A stretch of 38,239 nucleotides of DNA from Frankia sp. R82 (lineage in GTDB: Bacteria; Actinomycetota; Actinomycetes; Frankiales; Frankiaceae), in the NCBI RefSeq assembly GCF_023716925.1, contig NZ_JAMQQG010000040.1, positions 1-38,239 on the forward strand. The letters are read 5' to 3'. This document shows, piece by piece, positions 2,224 to 35,181 of the stretch. The translations under genes were made by a program, and so were the position numbers. Numbering within the stretch: the stretch's first letter is position 1; each line of letters starts with the position of its first letter. The notes beneath the pieces are model-generated. The model saw only the letters and a list, made by a program, of their open reading frames with translations, did no database searches and had not been told where the DNA came from.

Positions 2224-4174
<1,951 letters not shown>

Positions 4175-4199
4175 CGATGTGCGATGTGCGATTACGGCA

Positions 4200-25171: not shown

Positions 25172-26824
25172 TCAATCGGTATGCGAACCTGACGAAGCAA
25201 TCCGATCGAGGATACCTGCAGTATCGGTCCCGGCCGGAAGGGTACCGAAAGCGAGACCCCGGTCACCGGCCAGCCGGGACGTGCAGAACGCATCGGCAAC
25301 CGCCGTCGGCGCATGCTGGACAAGGAGGGAGCCCTGAAGGACGAGCGCGAGACGCTCTACCAGCCGCCGCGCCGTGAACGGCTCGCCGGCGGCGGCAAGC
25401 TGTGGAAGGAGCTGGTCCCAGGCCCGATCGAGCCGCCGGTCCGCACCACGCGCCGCGTCGACCTCGGCAGTCAGGGCCGCCAGCGCCCCGGGCTGACGGC
25501 CCAGCGCCCGCAGAACGTCCAGCGCGTTGACGTTCCCGGCACCTTCCCAGATTCCGTTCAGCGGCGCCTCACGGTACAGGCGGGGCATTCCCGACTCCTC
25601 CACGTAACCGTTTCCGCCCAGGCACTCAAGTGCCTCCACCACCACCCCCGGAACCCGTTTACACACCCAGTACTTCGCCACCGCCGTCGCGACCCGTCGA
25701 AACTCCCGTTCGCTGTCGTCACCACGCACGGACCGGTCCACCGCCCCAGCCACCCGCATCACCAAAGTGGTGGCCGCCTCGGTTTCCACGACGAGATCCG
25801 ACAGCACGTTGCGCATCAACGGCGCGTCCAGGAGCAGGCCACCGAATGCACGTCGGTGCCGGACGTGATGAGCGGCCACCGTCACCGCCGCGCGCATTCC
25901 GGCCGCGGCGGCGAGGGCCGCGTCGAGGCGGGTGAGCGCGACCATCTCGAGAATGACGGCGACACCGCGGCCCTGCTCGCCGACCAGCCAGCCGTGCGTG
26001 TCGTCGAACTCCGGCTCGCTGCTGGCGTTGCTGCGGTTGCCAAGCTTGTCCTTCAGGCGCTGGATGCGGAAGGTGTTGCGGCTGCCGTCGGGCAGTACCC
26101 GCGGGACGAGGAAACACGACAGCCCACCAGGTGCCTGGGCCAGTACCAGGAACACGTCGTTCATCGGTGCGCTGGTGAACCACTTGTGCCCGCGCAGCCG
26201 GAAGGTTCCGTCGGCGGTGGGGGTGGCCGTCGTGGTGTTCGTCCGGACGTCGGACCCGCCCTGCTTCTCGGTCATGCCCATGCCAGCAAGCAGCCCCGCC
26301 TTGGTCTCGGGCACCCGCAGCCCCGGGTCGTACACCCGGCTGGTGAGCAGCGGCTCGTACCGGGCGGCCAGCTCCGGCGCGACCCGCAGGGCCGGAACCG
26401 CCGCGTACGTCATCGACGCCGGACACAGATGCCCTTGTTCCACCGTGCCCCACACCAGGATGTTCGCTGCCCGGGCGACGTGGGCACCGGGGCGCGACCG
26501 CGCCCACGGCGCCCCGGCCATCCCCTCGCGCACGGCCACGTCGAGCAGGGCATGCCAGGCCGGATGGAACTCGACCTCGTCGATCCGGTGCCCGTAGCGA
26601 TCGTGGGTGCGCAGCTCGGGGGGAAACCGGTCGGCCTGCTCGGCCCAGTGCAGGGACTGCTCGGAGCCGGCGAGGGCGCCGAGTCGACACAGGTCGGGCA
26701 GATGCCAGCTCGCACCCTCGCGCGCCAGCGCCGCCCGCAGAGCCGGATCGGCGGACGGATCATGGCCGACCAGTGGCGGCGGCTGATTGGTCACCTGATG
26801 GGTGCTTCCGGTCGGCGAGCTCAT
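25172..26824 (-). CDS. aidB: AidB-type acyl-CoA dehydrogenase family protein
   Basis: A 550-residue flavoprotein of the acyl-CoA dehydrogenase superfamily, close in length to E. coli AidB (541). Motifs: MTEKQGGSDVRTNTT (FAD/substrate region), GHKWFTSAPMND, RIQRLKDKLGNRSNASSE, LEMVALTRLDAALAAAAGMRAAV, RRAFGGLLLDAPLMRNVLSDL, ALECLGGNGYVEESGMPRLYREAPLNGIWEGAGN. AidB is linked to the DNA alkylation response and also binds DNA; that role is known for E. coli only. ATG 26824 is chosen over an upstream frame reaching 27100, because the family homology starts near here and AGGGG precedes it. No ada/alk genes are adjacent. Confidence 0.92.
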   Translation of the reverse strand: MSSPTGSTHQVTNQPPPLVGHDPSADPALRAALAREGASWHLPDLCRLGALAGSEQSLHWAEQADRFPPELRTHDRYGHRIDEVEFHPAWHALLDVAVREGMAGAPWARSRPGAHVARAANILVWGTVEQGHLCPASMTYAAVPALRVAPELAARYEPLLTSRVYDPGLRVPETKAGLLAGMGMTEKQGGSDVRTNTTTATPTADGTFRLRGHKWFTSAPMNDVFLVLAQAPGGLSCFLVPRVLPDGSRNTFRIQRLKDKLGNRSNASSEPEFDDTHGWLVGEQGRGVAVILEMVALTRLDAALAAAAGMRAAVTVAAHHVRHRRAFGGLLLDAPLMRNVLSDLVVETEAATTLVMRVAGAVDRSVRGDDSEREFRRVATAVAKYWVCKRVPGVVVEALECLGGNGYVEESGMPRLYREAPLNGIWEGAGNVNALDVLRALGRQPGALAALTAEVDAARGADRRLDRAWDQLLPQLAAAGEPFTARRLVERLALVLQGSLLVQHAPTAVADAFCTSRLAGDRGLAFGTLPAGTDTAGILDRIASSGSHTD

Positions 26825-27312
26825 CGTGACCCCTGCCTCCTCTTCCGCTGCCTGCCCGACCACGATGCGCCACCCGTCCGTCGCCGGCCAGTACCGCCGA
26901 CCGGACCATCGGAGATGTCGGACTGGCCCGCCGACATCCGTACCAGGACGGCGCCGGTCAGCCTGCGGCAATTCACGGGGGAGCCGCGGGCCGATGTGCT
27001 GCCCACACCATCCCCGGGCCAACCGGTGGGCCGACCGACGACGTGTTAATTGATTCCGCCGACCGCGGTCTCCTGGCACGCACTGGTTATCCACGTGCAT
27101 CGGCCGGCATCCGCCGGGCAGGCGGTCAGCCTGGACCGCAAACAGCGTGACGGTGCCGGCCGGGGCGGCGAGACCCGGCCGGATCGTCCGGGTCTCGCCG
27201 CCCGATGTCGCCGCGGGTCACCCGGGGGCGGGCCTGACCCGGCCCGCAGTGATGTGCGTCGGGCCGCGATCATCTGGTCCTGCTCCGCAACCCTGACTGG
27301 AGTTAGTCAATC
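26825..27312. other. Intergenic region upstream of aidB with a 16-bp hairpin
   Basis: About 490 bp with no convincing gene. It must hold the aidB promoter. The main structure is the perfect hairpin at 27163-27203. Just before the small ORF, TGACT/AGTCA (27294-27298, 27305-27309) form a small hairpin with GGAG in its loop. Confidence 0.5.
27163..27203. terminator. Perfect 16-bp hairpin (orphan terminator-like)
   Basis: Arms 27163-27178 and 27188-27203 are perfectly complementary around a 9-nt loop. It is not downstream of any recognised gene, and no T-tract follows. It may shield aidB's promoter region from transcription arriving from the right. Confidence 0.6.
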
Positions 27313-27612: not shown

Positions 27613-27656
27613 CATACGAGTGGGGGCACCGAAATCTGTCGGCAGATACTCGTATG
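27613..27656 (+). promoter_or_regulatory. Nested hairpin in the leader of the double GGDEF gene
   Basis: CATACGAGT (27613-27621) pairs perfectly with ACTCGTATG (27648-27656). Inside, ATCTG (27634-27638) pairs with CAGAT (27643-27647) around TCGG, directly stacked on the outer stem, leaving a 12-nt one-sided bulge GGGGGCACCGAA. This is well-ordered RNA-like structure 50-95 nt before the GTG start. It does not match the c-di-GMP riboswitch classes I know. Confidence 0.55.
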
Positions 27657-27664
27657 CTCAGCCC

Positions 27665-27688
27665 TTATCGGGTGCATTTGGCCGATAA
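27665..27688 (+). promoter_or_regulatory. Second leader hairpin of the double GGDEF gene
   Basis: TTATCGG (27665-27671) pairs with CCGATAA (27682-27688) around a 10-nt loop, and the stem runs directly into AAAAGGA, the likely ribosome binding region. The start GTG is at 27707, ~14 nt from the GGA. The pairing could modulate access to the ribosome site. Confidence 0.5.
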
Positions 27689-27706
27689 AAGGAATTTTCA
27701 CTCACG

Positions 27707-30700
27707 GTGAGATCCGTCGAGTCCGGATGGTGTGGTCGGACGGGGCAGGACATGTGTGGACGTGGCCGCAGCGGCCAGCGGGAGGCTCGCGCACGCTCGC
27801 GCCTCCTGCAGCCCGCGGCCGTGCTGCTGGCCGTGGCCATCCTCGGTGCGCTGGCACTCGTGCTGGGCAATGATCTGCTGCGACGCGAAGAACAGGCTCG
27901 GCTGGCGGCCCGTGCTGCCCTGGTCGAACGGCTCTCGGGTTGGGAGTCCACCAGCGCATCGCCCGCCCTGCTGGCCGCCGCCGCGCACAGTCTGCCCTTC
28001 CGCCCGGGCGACCCGGCCAACGCGGATCTGCTGCTGCGGCTGCAGATCTCCGCCTCAGGCGATGTGAACCACCTGCTGGTTCTGCTGGACCGGGATGGCC
28101 GGGTCAGTGCCGCCTACCCGGCAGGCGCCAGGGTGGAGGCGGCCACGCTCGGCAGGGCGTGGTCTGCCGCGCTGGCGGGGCGCTCCGGTCTGTCCCCCGT
28201 CATCGTCGAGGGTGCGCTGCCACGGCGGGCAACGCTCGTCCCGATCGGTGGGCCGCTGCCCTGGGCAGTGCTGGTCGCGGTGTCGACCGATCAGGTCCAC
28301 CTGATCATCGGCGACGGCATGGCCGCGTTACTCGGTGCCGGTGCCGGCACCGTGTCCACGGTCGACCCCACCGGCGTCGCGCTGACCAGCACCGACCCGG
28401 CCGCCGTGGGCACCCACATCGTCGACGCCGCCGAACTGGCCACCTCCACGACCACCCGCGGCACCGGCACCGGCAGCTCGGTCGCACCGGCTTCGGGCAC
28501 CCACATCTGGCGCACCTGCGGACCCGACGGCGAGGTCGTCAACATCGCCGCCCGGCAGACGGGGACGGGCTATTTCACCTACTTCCGGCAACCCGCTGGC
28601 TCGCTGTACTCCGACCTGCGTTCCCGCGGCCACCGCCGCAACCTGACGCTGTTGTGCGTGGCCCTGACGGCCACCCTGAGCATTCTGTTCATCGCACTGC
28701 GGCGCGCACTGTCGGCCCGCCAGACCGAGAACTGGTTACGCTCCCTGTTCGCCGCGGCCAGCGACATCGTGCTCGTCACCGATCGGACCACGGCCATGGT
28801 GTTCGTCAGTCCGGCGATCGAGACGATGCTCGGATATCGTGCAGCCGACTGGTCGGGACGCCCCGTCACCGACCTCGCGCATCGGGACGATGCCCACCGG
28901 CTGCGCCGTCTGGTCGAGGACCCGGACCAGGCACACGGCTCGGAACTCGGCCTACGGTTACGCACCGCTTCGGGCGGCATCGCCTGGTTCGACGTGGCCG
29001 CCCGGCCGCTGCCCGCTCACGGCAGCCCCACCGAAATGATCATTACCTGCCACGCCGCCGGTCAGCGCAAGCGCCTGCTCGACCAGCTCACCCATCAGGC
29101 CCGCCACGACGCTCTCACCGGCCTGCTCAACCGATCGGCCTTCACCGAACGGCTAGCCGCCGCGGTGGGCGCCGCCACGGCCGAAGACAGCACCGCCACG
29201 GCCGGGAGCACCGGACGGCCGCTCGCGGTGCTGTTCGTCGACCTCGACCGGTTCAAGCCCGTGAACGACACCTTCGGGCATCTCGCCGGCGACCGGGTGC
29301 TGCGCGAGATCGGCACCCGGCTGCGGGCGGAACTCGGGCCACGGGCCGCCGGCGCCCGGTTCGGCGGCGACGAGTTCGGCATCCTGCTGCCCGACACCGA
29401 CGCCCGCGCCGCCGGCGAGGCGGCCACCCGCATCATCTGCTCCTTCGGACGGCCGGTCTTCATCGACGACGACACCGCGGTGCGGGTCGCCGCCAGCGTC
29501 GGCATCGCCCTCACCGACGTGGCCACCCCGACCGAGTCGCTGCTCCAGTTCGCAGACCAGGCCATGTACCAGGCCAAACAGCTCGGCCCTGGCCGTTTCG
29601 CACTGCGGGTGGGCAGCGCCCTCGACACGCACCCGTCCACCGGCTGGCGTAGCCGGCACACCGTCGGCGGCTTCACCGTGATCGAACCTGCCGACGACAG
29701 CCGACGCGACGCCATCGCCCTGGAGACCCACCGGTCGAGCCCGCACCGGTCCCCCGAGCGGGCCGGCACTGGTAGCCCGCAGGTCCCCTCCCAGCCGGGC
29801 GCTGGCCCGCAGGATTCCCGTCCGCCGGGGGCCGGCCCGCAGCACCCCGCCACCCGGGCCCGCAGTGACCGGGGCGCACCGCGACGCGGCCGGCGGCATC
29901 GGTCGCGGACCCGATGGTCGTCCACCCGGCGGGGGCGGACCCGGGGCACCCGTCGGGCACGCCGGGCATACGGCGTACTGCCGAGCGTCATCAGCCTGCT
30001 GGTCCTGGCCATGATGATCCTGGCCAGTGCGACGACCATCGTGGCAGTCGAGCACACCAACCAGCGCCGCCTCGACGACCGACAGATCCGGCAGGCCACG
30101 CAGCTGGCGAACACGACAGCAAAGATCATCTCCCAGCTCAACCAGCCGAGCTATCTGATCGCCCCGATCTCCGCGCTCCCCTGGTCGCTGACCGACCGGG
30201 CGGCCGATGCCCGGACGCTGGACTCGATCGCCGGTCCCGACCTGTCCACTCCGGACGTCGTGCTCGCCCTCGTCGATCTCGGTGGCCAGCCGCTCGCGGT
30301 GCGCCCGTCCGGGGCGAAGGTGCCGATCGACCCGGGCAGCCGGGTCTGGGAGCTCGCCCGCGACGGCGGCCTAAACGTTGTGGTGGCCGGCCCCACCACG
30401 CCGCGCCAGGGACTCCACCCGCCGGTCGACGACGTCCTGGCGGTCAGCGTCGTTCCGGTCCGGCGTGACGGCCGCGATGTCGCCTTTCTCCTGCTCACCC
30501 GAGCCCTGACCCGGGCGTCCGTCGCGGAGCTGGCCAGGGCGCTGGGCATCCTGCCCGACAGTGGACAGACCAGCGGGACGACGAACGCGTCCAGTCCGAC
30601 CGGGCGGTCCCGCCCCGCCATCACGATCACCCTGGTCGATGCCGACGGCCACGCGGTGATCTCGACCGACCGCGCTCTCCTGGGACGGACGCTGGTCGAC

Positions 30701-31855
30701 CCCGCCCAGCTGCGATCGGTCCGGCCAGGTAACAGCCGGCAGGTGGTGCTGCGCACCGCAGGCGGTGCGCAGCTCGCCGACGTGGGCGTCATCCCGGCCG
30801 TGCCCAGGCCGTACTACCTGGTCCTGCGCCAGGACGGCCGGATGGTCGAGGGCCCGTCACCCGGCCGTCCGGCCAGCGACCTGGTCGTGTACGCGCTGGT
30901 GATCGTCACCGCTGCCGCGCTGCTGTGGACCCTGCTGCGGGAGAGTCAGCGGACCCGGCGGGAGGGCGCCCGGCTGACCATGCTGCTCCACGAGTCCCAC
31001 GACATCGTGGTGGTGCTCAACCGGGCCGGCCGCGCCACGTTCATCACCTCGGCGGTCGAGGGTCTGCTCGGCCACCGGGCGGTCCACCTGCTGGGTCGAC
31101 CGCTGCTCGACCTCGTCCACCCCGGCGATCGGGCGGCGGTGCAGGCCTACCTCGACGCGCACCCGTGCGGCGGGGCGAGTCCGGGCCCGGACTCCCTGCT
31201 GGACATCCGCCTGTACACCGCCACCGGCGACCACCGCTGGTTCGACCTCGCGGCCGCCCGGCGCGCCGGGCCACTGGGGCGCGATCTGATGGTGACCTGC
31301 CATGAGGTCGGCGAACGCCGTCGGCTGCAGGCCAGGATCTGGTGGCAGGCCAGCCACGACACCCTCACCGGCCTCGGCAGTCGGATAGGCCTCGCCGACC
31401 GGCTCGACCGGCTCGCCGACGCCCGCACCCCGTTCACGATCCTGCTGATCGACCTGGACGACTTCAAGCCGGTGAACGACACCTTCGGCCACCATGTCGG
31501 CGACGAGGTGCTGCGGGTCATCGCGACCCGCCTCGTCGCGATCGCCGGTGTCGCCCCGGACGACGTGTTCCGCCTCGGCGGCGACGAGTTCCTCATCGTG
31601 CTACCCGAGGCCGACGAGAGCGCCGTGCGCACCATCCTGACCGATGCCCGCCGGACCATCGCCACCCCGGTGGACGTCGCCGGTCGGACCTTCACCATTC
31701 GCGCTGCCGTCGGCGTCGCGTCCTCCCGCGGCCTGACCGGTCCCGACCCGGGCAGGCCCGACCCGGATGCCGTCATCCGCCGCGCCGACGCGGCCATGTA
31801 CGCCGCCAAGCGCACGTCCCGCGGACCCAGGCAGATGCACCCCACCCCCCGCTGA
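27707..31855 (+). CDS. Double-module membrane diguanylate cyclase: two (sensor-PAS-GGDEF) units in one protein
   Basis: A 1,382-residue protein with two copies of the same layout. Module 1: TM1 (~34-53), extracytoplasmic sensor region (~54-311), TM2 (~312-331), PAS (~345-445), GGDEF domain with GGDEF at 553-557. A basic, Pro/Arg-rich linker (~640-755) follows. Module 2: TM3 (~760-783), extracytoplasmic region, TM4 (~1059-1077), PAS (~1085-1190), GGDEF at 1291-1295. Both GGDEF domains keep FKPVNDTFGH and the catalytic loop, so both could make c-di-GMP; neither has the RxxD inhibitory site upstream. No EAL domain is present. One chain with both could form the required GGDEF dimer internally. 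GTG 27707 is the start used; ATG 27752 is an alternative. Confidence 0.9.
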   Translation: MRSVESGWCGRTGQDMCGRGRSGQREARARSRLLQPAAVLLAVAILGALALVLGNDLLRREEQARLAARAALVERLSGWESTSASPALLAAAAHSLPFRPGDPANADLLLRLQISASGDVNHLLVLLDRDGRVSAAYPAGARVEAATLGRAWSAALAGRSGLSPVIVEGALPRRATLVPIGGPLPWAVLVAVSTDQVHLIIGDGMAALLGAGAGTVSTVDPTGVALTSTDPAAVGTHIVDAAELATSTTTRGTGTGSSVAPASGTHIWRTCGPDGEVVNIAARQTGTGYFTYFRQPAGSLYSDLRSRGHRRNLTLLCVALTATLSILFIALRRALSARQTENWLRSLFAAASDIVLVTDRTTAMVFVSPAIETMLGYRAADWSGRPVTDLAHRDDAHRLRRLVEDPDQAHGSELGLRLRTASGGIAWFDVAARPLPAHGSPTEMIITCHAAGQRKRLLDQLTHQARHDALTGLLNRSAFTERLAAAVGAATAEDSTATAGSTGRPLAVLFVDLDRFKPVNDTFGHLAGDRVLREIGTRLRAELGPRAAGARFGGDEFGILLPDTDARAAGEAATRIICSFGRPVFIDDDTAVRVAASVGIALTDVATPTESLLQFADQAMYQAKQLGPGRFALRVGSALDTHPSTGWRSRHTVGGFTVIEPADDSRRDAIALETHRSSPHRSPERAGTGSPQVPSQPGAGPQDSRPPGAGPQHPATRARSDRGAPRRGRRHRSRTRWSSTRRGRTRGTRRARRAYGVLPSVISLLVLAMMILASATTIVAVEHTNQRRLDDRQIRQATQLANTTAKIISQLNQPSYLIAPISALPWSLTDRAADARTLDSIAGPDLSTPDVVLALVDLGGQPLAVRPSGAKVPIDPGSRVWELARDGGLNVVVAGPTTPRQGLHPPVDDVLAVSVVPVRRDGRDVAFLLLTRALTRASVAELARALGILPDSGQTSGTTNASSPTGRSRPAITITLVDADGHAVISTDRALLGRTLVDPAQLRSVRPGNSRQVVLRTAGGAQLADVGVIPAVPRPYYLVLRQDGRMVEGPSPGRPASDLVVYALVIVTAAALLWTLLRESQRTRREGARLTMLLHESHDIVVVLNRAGRATFITSAVEGLLGHRAVHLLGRPLLDLVHPGDRAAVQAYLDAHPCGGASPGPDSLLDIRLYTATGDHRWFDLAAARRAGPLGRDLMVTCHEVGERRRLQARIWWQASHDTLTGLGSRIGLADRLDRLADARTPFTILLIDLDDFKPVNDTFGHHVGDEVLRVIATRLVAIAGVAPDDVFRLGGDEFLIVLPEADESAVRTILTDARRTIATPVDVAGRTFTIRAAVGVASSRGLTGPDPGRPDPDAVIRRADAAMYAAKRTSRGPRQMHPTPR

Positions 31856-31953: not shown

Positions 31954-32616
31954 TCAGCGCGACGGGGTGGCGGCGGTGGAACGGGCGAGGTGGAGGGTGG
32001 CGGTCCAGCGGGCAGCCTCGGCATCGTGGCGCAGGTCAGCGCCGATCAGCTGGGCGAGCGGACGCAGCCGGCCGGCGCGCGCCTCGTCCGCCGGCGGCTC
32101 GTGCCCGGACGGACGCACCCCCAGGCGCAGGTCCACCCCCGCGGGGCCGGTGCGCACCGACAGCCAGGCTCGCTCGCCGGTGGCGTGCGGGTTGCTCGCC
32201 ATCAACAGCACCTGGACGGCGGCCAGGACCACCGCGATCTCCGCATCGCTCGGCGGGTTCTCCTCCAGGTGCAGCTCGGTGTCGAGCCGGTCCACAAGCA
32301 GGCCGGCGACGCGCTGGTCGAGGCCGGCGGTCAGGGCGGCCGGAGCGTCATGGCCGAGGCGGAAGATGCTGGGTGGCAGCTGCAGCTCGAAGGTGGTGGC
32401 GCGCAGCCGGTCCTCGATCTCCACGACCCGTTCGGCGAGCTCGCCGGGCAGGCGGCGGCGCACACTCGCCAGTTCCAGCAGAACGGCGGTGAACTCCTGC
32501 ATCGGCCCGTCATGCAGCCGGACGGCCATCGCCCGTTGGCCCCGTTCCTGGAGCGCGACCAACAGCCGCAGCAGCTCGTCCGGCCGGGCCTCGGTCCCAC
32601 CGCCGCGGGTGCTCAT
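31954..32616 (-). CDS. DesK-like histidine kinase fragment with degenerate ATP domain
   Basis: A 220-residue soluble protein. MAVRLHDGPMQEFTAVLLELASVRRRL contains a HisKA_3-type phosphoacceptor box with His35. The remainder follows the length of a HATPase domain (LLMASNPHATGERAWLSV takes the place of the N-box), but the G1/G2 glycine boxes are absent, so it probably cannot bind ATP in the normal way. It may act as a phosphotransfer protein. Its ATG overlaps the stop of the response-regulator gene (ATGA, 32613-32616), so the two are co-translated. Convergent with the double GGDEF gene. Confidence 0.65.
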   Translation of the reverse strand: MSTRGGGTEARPDELLRLLVALQERGQRAMAVRLHDGPMQEFTAVLLELASVRRRLPGELAERVVEIEDRLRATTFELQLPPSIFRLGHDAPAALTAGLDQRVAGLLVDRLDTELHLEENPPSDAEIAVVLAAVQVLLMASNPHATGERAWLSVRTGPAGVDLRLGVRPSGHEPPADEARAGRLRPLAQLIGADLRHDAEAARWTATLHLARSTAATPSR

Positions 32617-33071
32617 CCGCGTTCGGGCGTGCCGGCGGGGTCGGCGGCAGCGGCGGGCAGCAGCCGCCGGATCTCGGCGACGATCTGCTCGGCGGTGAAC
32701 GGCTTGCCCACCACGGGGATGTCCGACGGGAGCTCGTCGAGGCCGGGTGCGCCGGTGAGCAGCAGGCAGCGCCGCACCACCGCCGGGTCGCCGCGGCGCA
32801 GTTCGTCCACCAGATCGGTGCCGGGACGCCCCTGCAGACGGACGTCGATGATGATCGCGTCATACCCGGCGGGGTCCAGCCGCAGCGCCTGCGCCACCGA
32901 CCCGGCCTCACTGACCTCGAAGCCGGCGGCGTGCAGAATCCGGCTGAGCAGACTACGCAGCATGTCGTTGTCGTCCACGACGAGCACCCGCGCCGCGCGG
33001 GCGACCCGAGCCGGCCGGCCGCCCGTGTCGTCCCCGCCGTCGGCGGGCGTGCCGGTCGACGGACCGTTCAT
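32613..33071 (-). CDS. Single-domain response regulator (REC)
   Basis: A 152-residue protein with a Gly/Pro-rich leader (~1-28) and a CheY-like receiver: acidic pair VLVVDDND, phosphoacceptor Asp76 in AIIIDVRLQGRPG, LLLTGAP and the conserved Lys in VGKPFT. No output domain is present, so it works by protein contact or phosphotransfer. ATG 33071 has a GGGGGCGAG motif directly before it; an in-frame start at 33104 is less likely. It lies between the hybrid kinase (133 bp upstream) and the kinase-like gene (overlapping), giving a probable phosphorelay cassette. Confidence 0.9.
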   Translation of the reverse strand: MNGPSTGTPADGGDDTGGRPARVARAARVLVVDDNDMLRSLLSRILHAAGFEVSEAGSVAQALRLDPAGYDAIIIDVRLQGRPGTDLVDELRRGDPAVVRRCLLLTGAPGLDELPSDIPVVGKPFTAEQIVAEIRRLLPAAAADPAGTPERG

Positions 33072-33204
33072 CTCGCCCCCAGGTTCACCGCGCCGCCCGT
33101 CCACGGTAGGCGGGATCTGTCCTCGCCAACCTACCGGTAGCGACGCACTCGCCCAGGGCAGCCAAGGACAGTGGTGGTCCCTCCCGCGGGGTTTTTCGCG
33201 GCCT

Positions 33205-35181
33205 TCAGAAATCCTGCGGGCTGTCGAGCACCTCCCGCACCCGGGCCAGCAGCTCCTGCTCGGAAAACGGCTTCGGTAGCAGCGTCAGCCCGGGGTCGAG
33301 GGTGCCGTTGTGCGCCAGCACCGGGTAGGCGTAGCCGGACATGAACAGCACCCGGACGTCCGGGCGGTGCCGGTGCACGAGTTCGGCCACCGTCCGGCCG
33401 AGGACCTGTGGCATCACGACGTCGGTCAGCAGCAGGTCGATGCGGGTGGGGTGGCTCGCGGCGATCTCGACGGCGCGGTGGCCGTCCGCGGCGATGATCA
33501 CGTCATAGCCGTTGCGGACCAGCAGTCGGCGGGTGACCTCGCGCATCGCCCGTTCGTCCTCGACGACGAGGATGGTCTCACCGCCGGTGAGCACCGCCGC
33601 CTCGCTTGCCGGCTCGGGTACCACGGCCACGCTGTCGACCGCCGGCAGCAGGATGCTGACGGTGGTGCCGAGGCCGACGTCCGAGAAGATCTCGGCGTGC
33701 CCGCCGGCCTGGGTAACGATGCCGTAGACGGTGGCGAGCCCCAGGCCCGAGCCCTCGCCCTTGCGTTTGGTGGTGAAGAACGGCTCGAACGCGCGGCTGA
33801 CCGTCTCCGGGCTCATGCCCGACCCGCTGTCGCTGATCCGCAGGTGGACGTGCCGGCCGGGCTTGATCCCGGGCCGCCCGGCGGCGATGTCGTCCTGGAT
33901 GTGGATGTTGGCCGTGTCGATGGTGAGCTTGCCCCCGCCGGGCATCGCGTCCCGGGCGTTGACGGCCAGGTTGACCAGCACCTGCTCGAGCTGGCCGGCG
34001 TCGGCGAACACCGCCCACGGCTCGGTCGACGCCACGGTGATCAGCTCGACGTGTTCCCCCAGGGTGCGCCGCAGCATGTCCTCGATGTCCGCCACGACGT
34101 CGTTGACGTTCAGCACCCGCGGCTGGACGACCTCCCGGCGGCCGAACGCGAGCAGCTGATGGGTGAGCTGGGTGGCCCGTTCGGCCGCTCGCTGCACCTG
34201 GTCGATGTCCCGGCGGACCGGCTCCCAGGCGGGCTCCCCGCGTGCGGCGGCGGCCGAGACCACCTCGGAGATGAACGCGGTGTAGTTGATGATCACGCCG
34301 AGCAGGTTGTTGAAGTCGTGCGCGACCCCGCCGGCCAGCTGACCGAGGCTTTCCAACCGCTGCGACTGGTGCAGCTGCGCCTCGATCCGTTTGCGCTCGG
34401 CCTGGGCCCGCAGCCGCTCCCGCTCGGCCTGGGCCTCCAGCCGCTCGGTCACGTCGCGGATGGCGGCGGAGACGAGCAGCCCCTCCTCGGTCTCCAGCGC
34501 CGACAGGGAGATCTCGGCCGGGAACTCGCTGCCATCGCGGCGACGGGCGGCCAGCTGCATCTGGGCGCCCATCGGGCGGGGCTGCGGATCGGCGAAGTAC
34601 CGGGTGCGGTGACCCGGGTGCTTGCTCCGGGCGGCCTCGGGGACGAGGACCTCCACCGACTGACCGTGCAGTTCCTCCCGGCTGTACCCGAACAGACGCT
34701 CGGCCTGGGCGTTCACCAGCGCGATCCGCCCGTCGGAGAGAACGCCGACGATGGCGTCCGGCGCCGAGTCGAGCAGGCCGCGGAACTTGGCCTCCGCCCG
34801 CTTGCGATCGGTGACGTCACGGACGGCGGCAGTGATGAGCACCCGCTCGTCGAGCTGGATCGCGGCCAGGGAGATCTCCGCGGGGAACTCGCTGCCGTCG
34901 CGGCGCCGCCCGGCGAGCTCCATGCCCAGACCCATCGGCCGCGGCTGTGGCTCCCGCAGGTAGGACGCGCGGTGGCTCGGGTGCAGGGCCCGGGCCGACT
35001 CGGGGATCAGGATCTCGACCGGCTCGCCGAGCAGCTCCGCGCGGGTGTAGCCGAACAACCGCTCGGCCTGCGCGTTGACGAGCGCGATCCGTCCGTCCGC
35101 ATGCACGCCGACAATCGCGTCGGGTGCCGCATCCAGCAGGCCGCTGGCAAAGGTACCTCTGCCGTCTTCCAGGTCAACCAC
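33205..35181 (-). CDS. PAS-PAS hybrid histidine kinase with C-terminal receiver
   Basis: A 658-residue soluble kinase. Two PAS domains (~13-125 and ~138-250) are close copies of each other (APDAIVGV...[16 protein letters not shown] in both). A short coiled coil, rich in AQAERERLR, leads to the HisKA domain with [11 protein letters not shown], His288. The ATPase domain has [28 protein letters not shown] and [14 protein letters not shown] receiver at ~540-655 has VVEDE, Asp587 in LLLTDVVMP and LPKPFSE. There are no transmembrane segments, so the signal is probably cytoplasmic (redox, light or ligand on PAS). Start GTG 35181 is the only near option with the PAS intact; its ribosome site is poor. 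Confidence 0.94.

Follow-up and report, generated by a model that had tools for sequence, protein, structure and literature searches.

Gene and domain architecture

The forward strand of the window (the whole 38,239-nucleotide stretch of Frankia sp. R82 DNA analysed here) holds a single open reading frame at 27707-31855, free of internal stops, whose predicted product is a double-module diguanylate cyclase (DGC; Table 1). Translation probably begins at the ATG rather than at the upstream GTG, since the 45-47 nt between the two, strongly conserved across 11 aligned Frankia orthologs, contain 1-2 base indels and would therefore not be coding in a common frame. GC3 stays at 0.84-0.94 from residue 81 through the C-terminus, the linker between the modules included, which argues that the fused frame is coding throughout.

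Table 1. Features of the dual cyclase gene and its surroundings (window positions; amino-acid numbers counted from GTG 27707)
Feature	Position	Strand	Basis
AidB-type acyl-CoA dehydrogenase, divergent neighbour, kept in clade	25172..27100	-	
Conserved non-coding leader, core ACTCACGGTGAGATCCGTCGAGTCCGG	27652..27751	+	conserved in 11 Frankia orthologs
Double-module diguanylate cyclase CDS	27752..31855	+	most likely start ATG 27752, 1367 aa; longest frame from GTG 27707, 1382 aa
TM1 (aa 36-54)	27812..27868	+	hydropathy
Sensor 1, extracytoplasmic double-Cache (dCache) domain	27890..28642	+	AF2 mean pLDDT 86.9; Foldseek to PDB 7k5n E=1e-6
TM2 (aa 313-331)	28643..28699	+	hydropathy
PAS 1 (aa 345-440)	28739..29026	+	Pfam PF00989
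GGDEF 1	29099..29587	+	Pfam PF00990; genome search 128 bits
GGDEF 1 primary I-site position, GPRA in place of RxxD	29336..29347	+	alignment
GGDEF motif 1	29363..29377	+	
Variable Arg/Pro/Gly-rich inter-module linker, net +17 over 121 aa	29609..29971	+	mean pairwise identity 21%; composition
TM3 (aa 761-779)	29987..30043	+	hydropathy
Sensor 2, dCache homologous to sensor 1	30074..30880	+	AF2 mean pLDDT 78.5; Foldseek 9heh E=1.2e-7; hhalign
TM4 (aa 1059-1077)	30881..30937	+	hydropathy
PAS 2	30974..31315	+	second Pfam PAS stretch; profile alignment to PAS 1
GGDEF 2	31349..31822	+	genome search 117 bits
GGDEF 2 primary I-site position, VAPD in place of RxxD	31550..31561	+	alignment
GGDEF motif 2	31577..31591	+	
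Convergent neighbours, 3 genes, kept in most of clade	31954..35181	-	

Read from the N-terminus, the chain runs twice through the order TM-dCache-TM-PAS-GGDEF. In Pfam, PAS and GGDEF each match the protein in two stretches (GGDEF E=4e-70), with PF00990 scoring 235 bits over its two stretches against a curated cut-off of 23.8, and hydropathy gives four TM peaks, one pair flanking each extracytoplasmic sensor. The TM pattern, together with the basic linker, keeps both modules N-in.

AF2 models of both sensors display a double PAS-like extracytoplasmic fold behind a long N-terminal helix, a feature of the dCache superfamily, and match solved dCache domains in the PDB (Foldseek), including those of amino-acid chemoreceptors and DctB. 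One of these matches, 7k5n, is the proline-bound ligand-binding domain of a DGC from Aeromonas caviae. Pfam dCache_1 has no match in the window protein; among the ortholog sensors, one sensor 2 matches dCache_1 at 1.7e-5 and three match sCache_3_2. The canonical amino-acid-binding dCache motif, sought by eye, is represented in the window protein solely by R-x-W, and we do not claim it. Identity is lower for sensor 2 than for sensor 1 in 96% of protein pairs (mean 33.5 vs 41.9%), and because sensor 2 evolves faster the two may be unequal inputs and not a pair of equivalent keys.

Active sites and primary I-sites

Both active sites are intact in the window protein, with DLDxFKPVND...GH..GD and GGDEF present in modules 1 and 2. 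Across 34 dual proteins, which are mutually related and amount to far fewer than 34 independent tests, the D, D, F-K, N-D, G-H and G-D positions are invariant in both modules, with the exception of one F-to-L in module 2. The GGDEF motif is equally constant save for SGDEF in 3 module-1 copies, and one module-2 row is cut by a contig end. Mean pairwise identity is 52% for GGDEF1 and 49% for GGDEF2, indicating similar constraint. In each module, 21 residues separate the conserved Thr from the conserved Asp of DxLTG, and this equal helix length is what in-register GGDEF pairing would need.

The primary I-site RxxD of product-inhibited DGCs (PleD/DgcR type) is found in 0/2 modules of the window protein. 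A sequence-only reading of the same DNA had proposed two complete sensor-PAS-GGDEF modules in one polypeptide, both keeping the catalytic motif and both lacking the RxxD inhibitory site. All three points are borne out: the Pfam stretches, the four TM peaks and the two dCache models account for two full modules, every catalytic residue checked is present, and the I-site positions read GPRA and VAPD.

When RxxD was mapped on a tree built without the I-site loop columns, the 100/100 clade holding the window gene was found to miss it from module 1 in 16/16 members and from module 2 in 15/15 readable ones. The pattern varies in the other clade, where RxxD occurs in both modules, as in L071, or in one, namely in module 1 only (L084, L086 and L087) or in module 2 only (L063, L083, L078, L082 and L062, the last of which reads RPGE in module 1). 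Loss of RxxD is the simpler reading because single-module relatives carry it. Within the window gene's clade, the module-2 I-site loop, measured from D-x-FK to GGDEF, has grown from ~40 to 144 residues; L077, L081, L075 and L079 have insertions of up to ~105 residues in this loop, directly before an intact GGDEF.

The RxxD of one GGDEF domain normally binds product to the partner domain (PMC8041772). From the missing motif, we infer that product feedback at the primary I-site would be weak, and because both halves are without RxxD, input and protein level, and not product at that site, are expected to determine the output.

Occurrence and duplication history

Unbroken dual frames, 34 in total with that of the window, occur in 27/35 Frankiaceae genomes, among them single-contig genomes matched to F. 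alni ACN14a, F. casuarinae CcI3 and EAN1pec. Ca. Frankia nodulisporulans has a full-length relative of the same architecture (best segment 69% identity). An unbroken dual frame is absent from 8/35 genomes. G013 and G031 give no match to the sensor-1 profile, and in G009, G026, G029 and G034 the sensor-1 match falls on a short frame at or close to a contig end. In L085 (G023) and L086 (G024), the dual cyclase is split over two frames inside module 1, by decay or draft-sequence error. Several Frankiaceae also possess additional dual cyclases that lie away from the conserved neighbourhood (L062, L074, L078, L082, L083 and others), with differing I-site patterns.

The sensor-1 profile matches 33/35 Frankiaceae genomes and, elsewhere among 394 genomes of the class, just G127 and G192. 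These two encode a single-module protein in which the sensor leads directly into GGDEF, without PAS, and which reads RADD at the I-site position; a third, weak match lies in the order of G127. In 41 genomes of another actinobacterial order, no frame with two GGDEF matches was seen by eye among the matches listed, which we take as a hint.

Identity between the two halves of the window chain is 32% for the sensor, 40% for PAS and 45% for GGDEF. The sensor 1 and sensor 2 profiles align with probability 100 and E=2.9e-44 (hhalign), and the two PAS-GGDEF parts with E=2e-107; since both parts are homologous, the duplication took in the whole module, beyond PAS-GGDEF alone. In a 65-module tree rooted on single-module proteins, the module 1 sequences group in one clade and the module 2 sequences in another, the two are sisters, and their internal branching is largely mirrored. 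A PAS-GGDEF-only tree with 20 other GGDEFs returns the same split with every other GGDEF outside it (support 90). Because the separate module clades branch in parallel, a single tandem duplication of the whole module, predating the Frankiaceae radiation, explains the relationships among these sequences. The dual protein has persisted from the origin of the family onwards.

The sequence-only reading had also pointed to an old duplication, and the rooted tree with its two module clades agrees; the profile match between the two sensors extends the event to them. Its suggested search for other dual-module GGDEF proteins yielded the family described above. The danger that it named, an assembly artefact, or likewise a sequencing artefact that fused two genes, could draw on the draft state of the window genome (370 contigs) and on the split frames in relatives G023 and G024, but has next to no probability given that many independent genomes, some of them single-contig, have the dual frame unbroken, and given the conserved neighbours, and the coding GC3 that continues across the linker.

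Neighbourhood and leader

The upstream acyl-CoA dehydrogenase gene is found in 14/15 other members of the window gene's clade, and the downstream receiver and kinase genes in 12/15, within the flanking stretch compared; these neighbours are missing beside the genes of the other clade. The convergent trio consists of a 220-aa ORF without a Pfam match, a receiver protein (32613-33104), and a PAS-PAS-histidine kinase-receiver protein (33205-35181). Adjacency kept in most of the clade suggests that this trio shares a pathway with the dual cyclase. The 220-aa ORF carries an HDGPMQ-like motif.

The core of the leader occurs once in the entire genome, and the leader may be an operator or a structured leader, but Rfam has no match within it, and its consensus fold shows almost no covariation (-0.15 kcal/mol). 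The BldD box has the consensus TNACNCWGNGTNA. A candidate box before the gene, TCACTCACGGTGA, differs from it by one mismatch and was rejected, the window holding 3 matches against 2.95 expected by chance. Elsewhere in the window are a tRNA gene at the contig edge (46-118, minus strand) and a TPP riboswitch (4078-4185, minus strand) ahead of thiC (2224-4086, minus strand).

Link to nodules

Frankia are nitrogen-fixing bacteria that live in alder root nodules. In the F. alni nodule proteome, FRAAL0771 / WP_011602011.1, a 'diguanylate cyclase' of low spectral abundance, is 7.17-fold over-abundant in Alnus nodules and is the sole diguanylate-cyclase label in the table of most over-abundant nodule proteins (PMC8951365). 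The same study reports thiC as 12.8-fold over-abundant in nodules and labels FRAAL0800 as thiC (PMC8951365). In G001, the genome matched to ACN14a, the sole thiC match lies at 874 kb and the dual frame at 836.2-840.8 kb, with no other GGDEF gene below 968 kb. From tag 0771 to tag 0800 there are 29 tags, or ~30-40 kb, and a rough gene count between the two loci is 18, with gaps. Because this tag spacing fits the distance between thiC and the dual frame, FRAAL0771 is very probably the ACN14a copy of the dual cyclase, judged by its position relative to thiC. Strain ACN14a is reported to be transformable (PMC6769113). In CcI3, five diguanylate cyclases, whose names are not given, are lower in ammonium-grown cells (PMC3188489).

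Discussion

c-di-GMP is made by two facing GGDEF domains that contribute one GTP each, and the known DGCs are symmetric homodimers (PMC8041772). We propose, with a probability of roughly 0.55, that the Frankia protein is a membrane-bound diguanylate cyclase with the form of a covalent GGDEF pseudo-dimer. The ancestral module presumably acted as a homodimer, and a fused homodimer, once duplicated, would pair most simply with itself. In each half, a dCache sensor held between two TM helices is followed by PAS, a short helix and GGDEF. Ligand at one or both dCache domains would send a signal through the TM segments, PAS and helix; GGDEF1 would then face GGDEF2 of the same chain, each with one GTP, to form c-di-GMP, in an amount that would follow input and protein level. 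It is possible that two different signals are required, as in an AND gate. For the fuller proposal, namely a covalent pseudo-heterodimer with non-identical but complete half-sites and no primary-site feedback, fixed in Frankia and Parafrankia and raised in root nodules, we would put the chances at about even.

A different arrangement, which we regard as rather doubtful but worth serious attention, is that the chain tethers two separate cyclases, with GGDEF1-GGDEF1' and GGDEF2-GGDEF2' pairs forming across two chains and giving an OR-like or additive output. Such pairs would be symmetric homodimers like those of the known DGCs (PMC8041772), and presumably like those of the single-module relatives. 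The long, variable linker does not force intrachain pairing; its 121 flexible residues permit intrachain and interchain pairing equally. Moreover, RxxD has been lost from module 1 alone or from module 2 alone in some clades, so the regulatory sites can drift separately. That both active sites are conserved across the family agrees with mutual need and also with two interchain pairs, since each pair serving its own signal would likewise select for both. Redundancy between independent modules, however, should allow one of them to degenerate in at least some proteins, as the N-terminal GGDEF of Cph2 has, and 0/34 proteins have a catalytically degenerate module; nor was either module found in the family standing alone as an intact gene. 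Neither of these last two points is decisive.

It is also conceivable, but improbable in our estimation, that catalysis falls to one module while the other serves mainly as a regulatory or scaffold partner, for example if sensor 2 has no ligand. The lower conservation of sensor 2 and the enlarged module-2 I-site loop in the window gene's clade would be in keeping with such a division of labour, whereas the catalytic residues of module 2 are conserved equally to those of module 1.

Because DGCs have been studied as symmetric homodimers, a mutation in a homodimeric DGC always strikes both half-sites. A conserved two-in-one chain would make it directly testable how much each half-site and each sensor contributes, and whether two signals are combined. 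If the pseudo-heterodimer is real, half-sites and sensors could be altered separately, which homodimeric cyclases do not allow. The protein would, in addition, identify a source of c-di-GMP in the actinorhizal symbiosis, its F. alni ortholog being in all probability FRAAL0771.

Among known enzymes, single-module dCache-PAS-GGDEF membrane DGCs share the same domains in the same order, with catalytic residues present, whereas the Frankia protein has the module twice per chain and RxxD missing from both. Other DGCs are also without a primary I-site while retaining GGDEF; here, in contrast, the lack is common to both halves of one chain and fixed in one clade. Mammalian transmembrane adenylyl cyclases consist of tandem membrane-plus-cyclase halves that arose from duplication and have specialised, with one catalytic site. 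The likeness of layout is an analogy only, as the membrane parts are unrelated and both Frankia halves keep the full residue set. Cph2 likewise has a pair of sensor-linked GGDEF domains in a single chain, but is light-sensing, includes an EAL phosphodiesterase, and has a degenerate N-terminal GGDEF that is thought to be non-functional (PMC5812497). GAF and EAL, both features of the Cph2 family, do not exceed the Pfam cut-off in the window protein, and both Frankia modules, unlike those of Cph2, are membrane-bound, homologous along their full length and intact. In the open-access literature we found no chain that repeats a complete membrane sensor-GGDEF module in two homologous copies, Cph2 being the sole directly comparable case. 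Chains with two GGDEF domains are thus already known from Cph2, and two complete homologous membrane sensor-GGDEF modules per chain are a new variation on that design.
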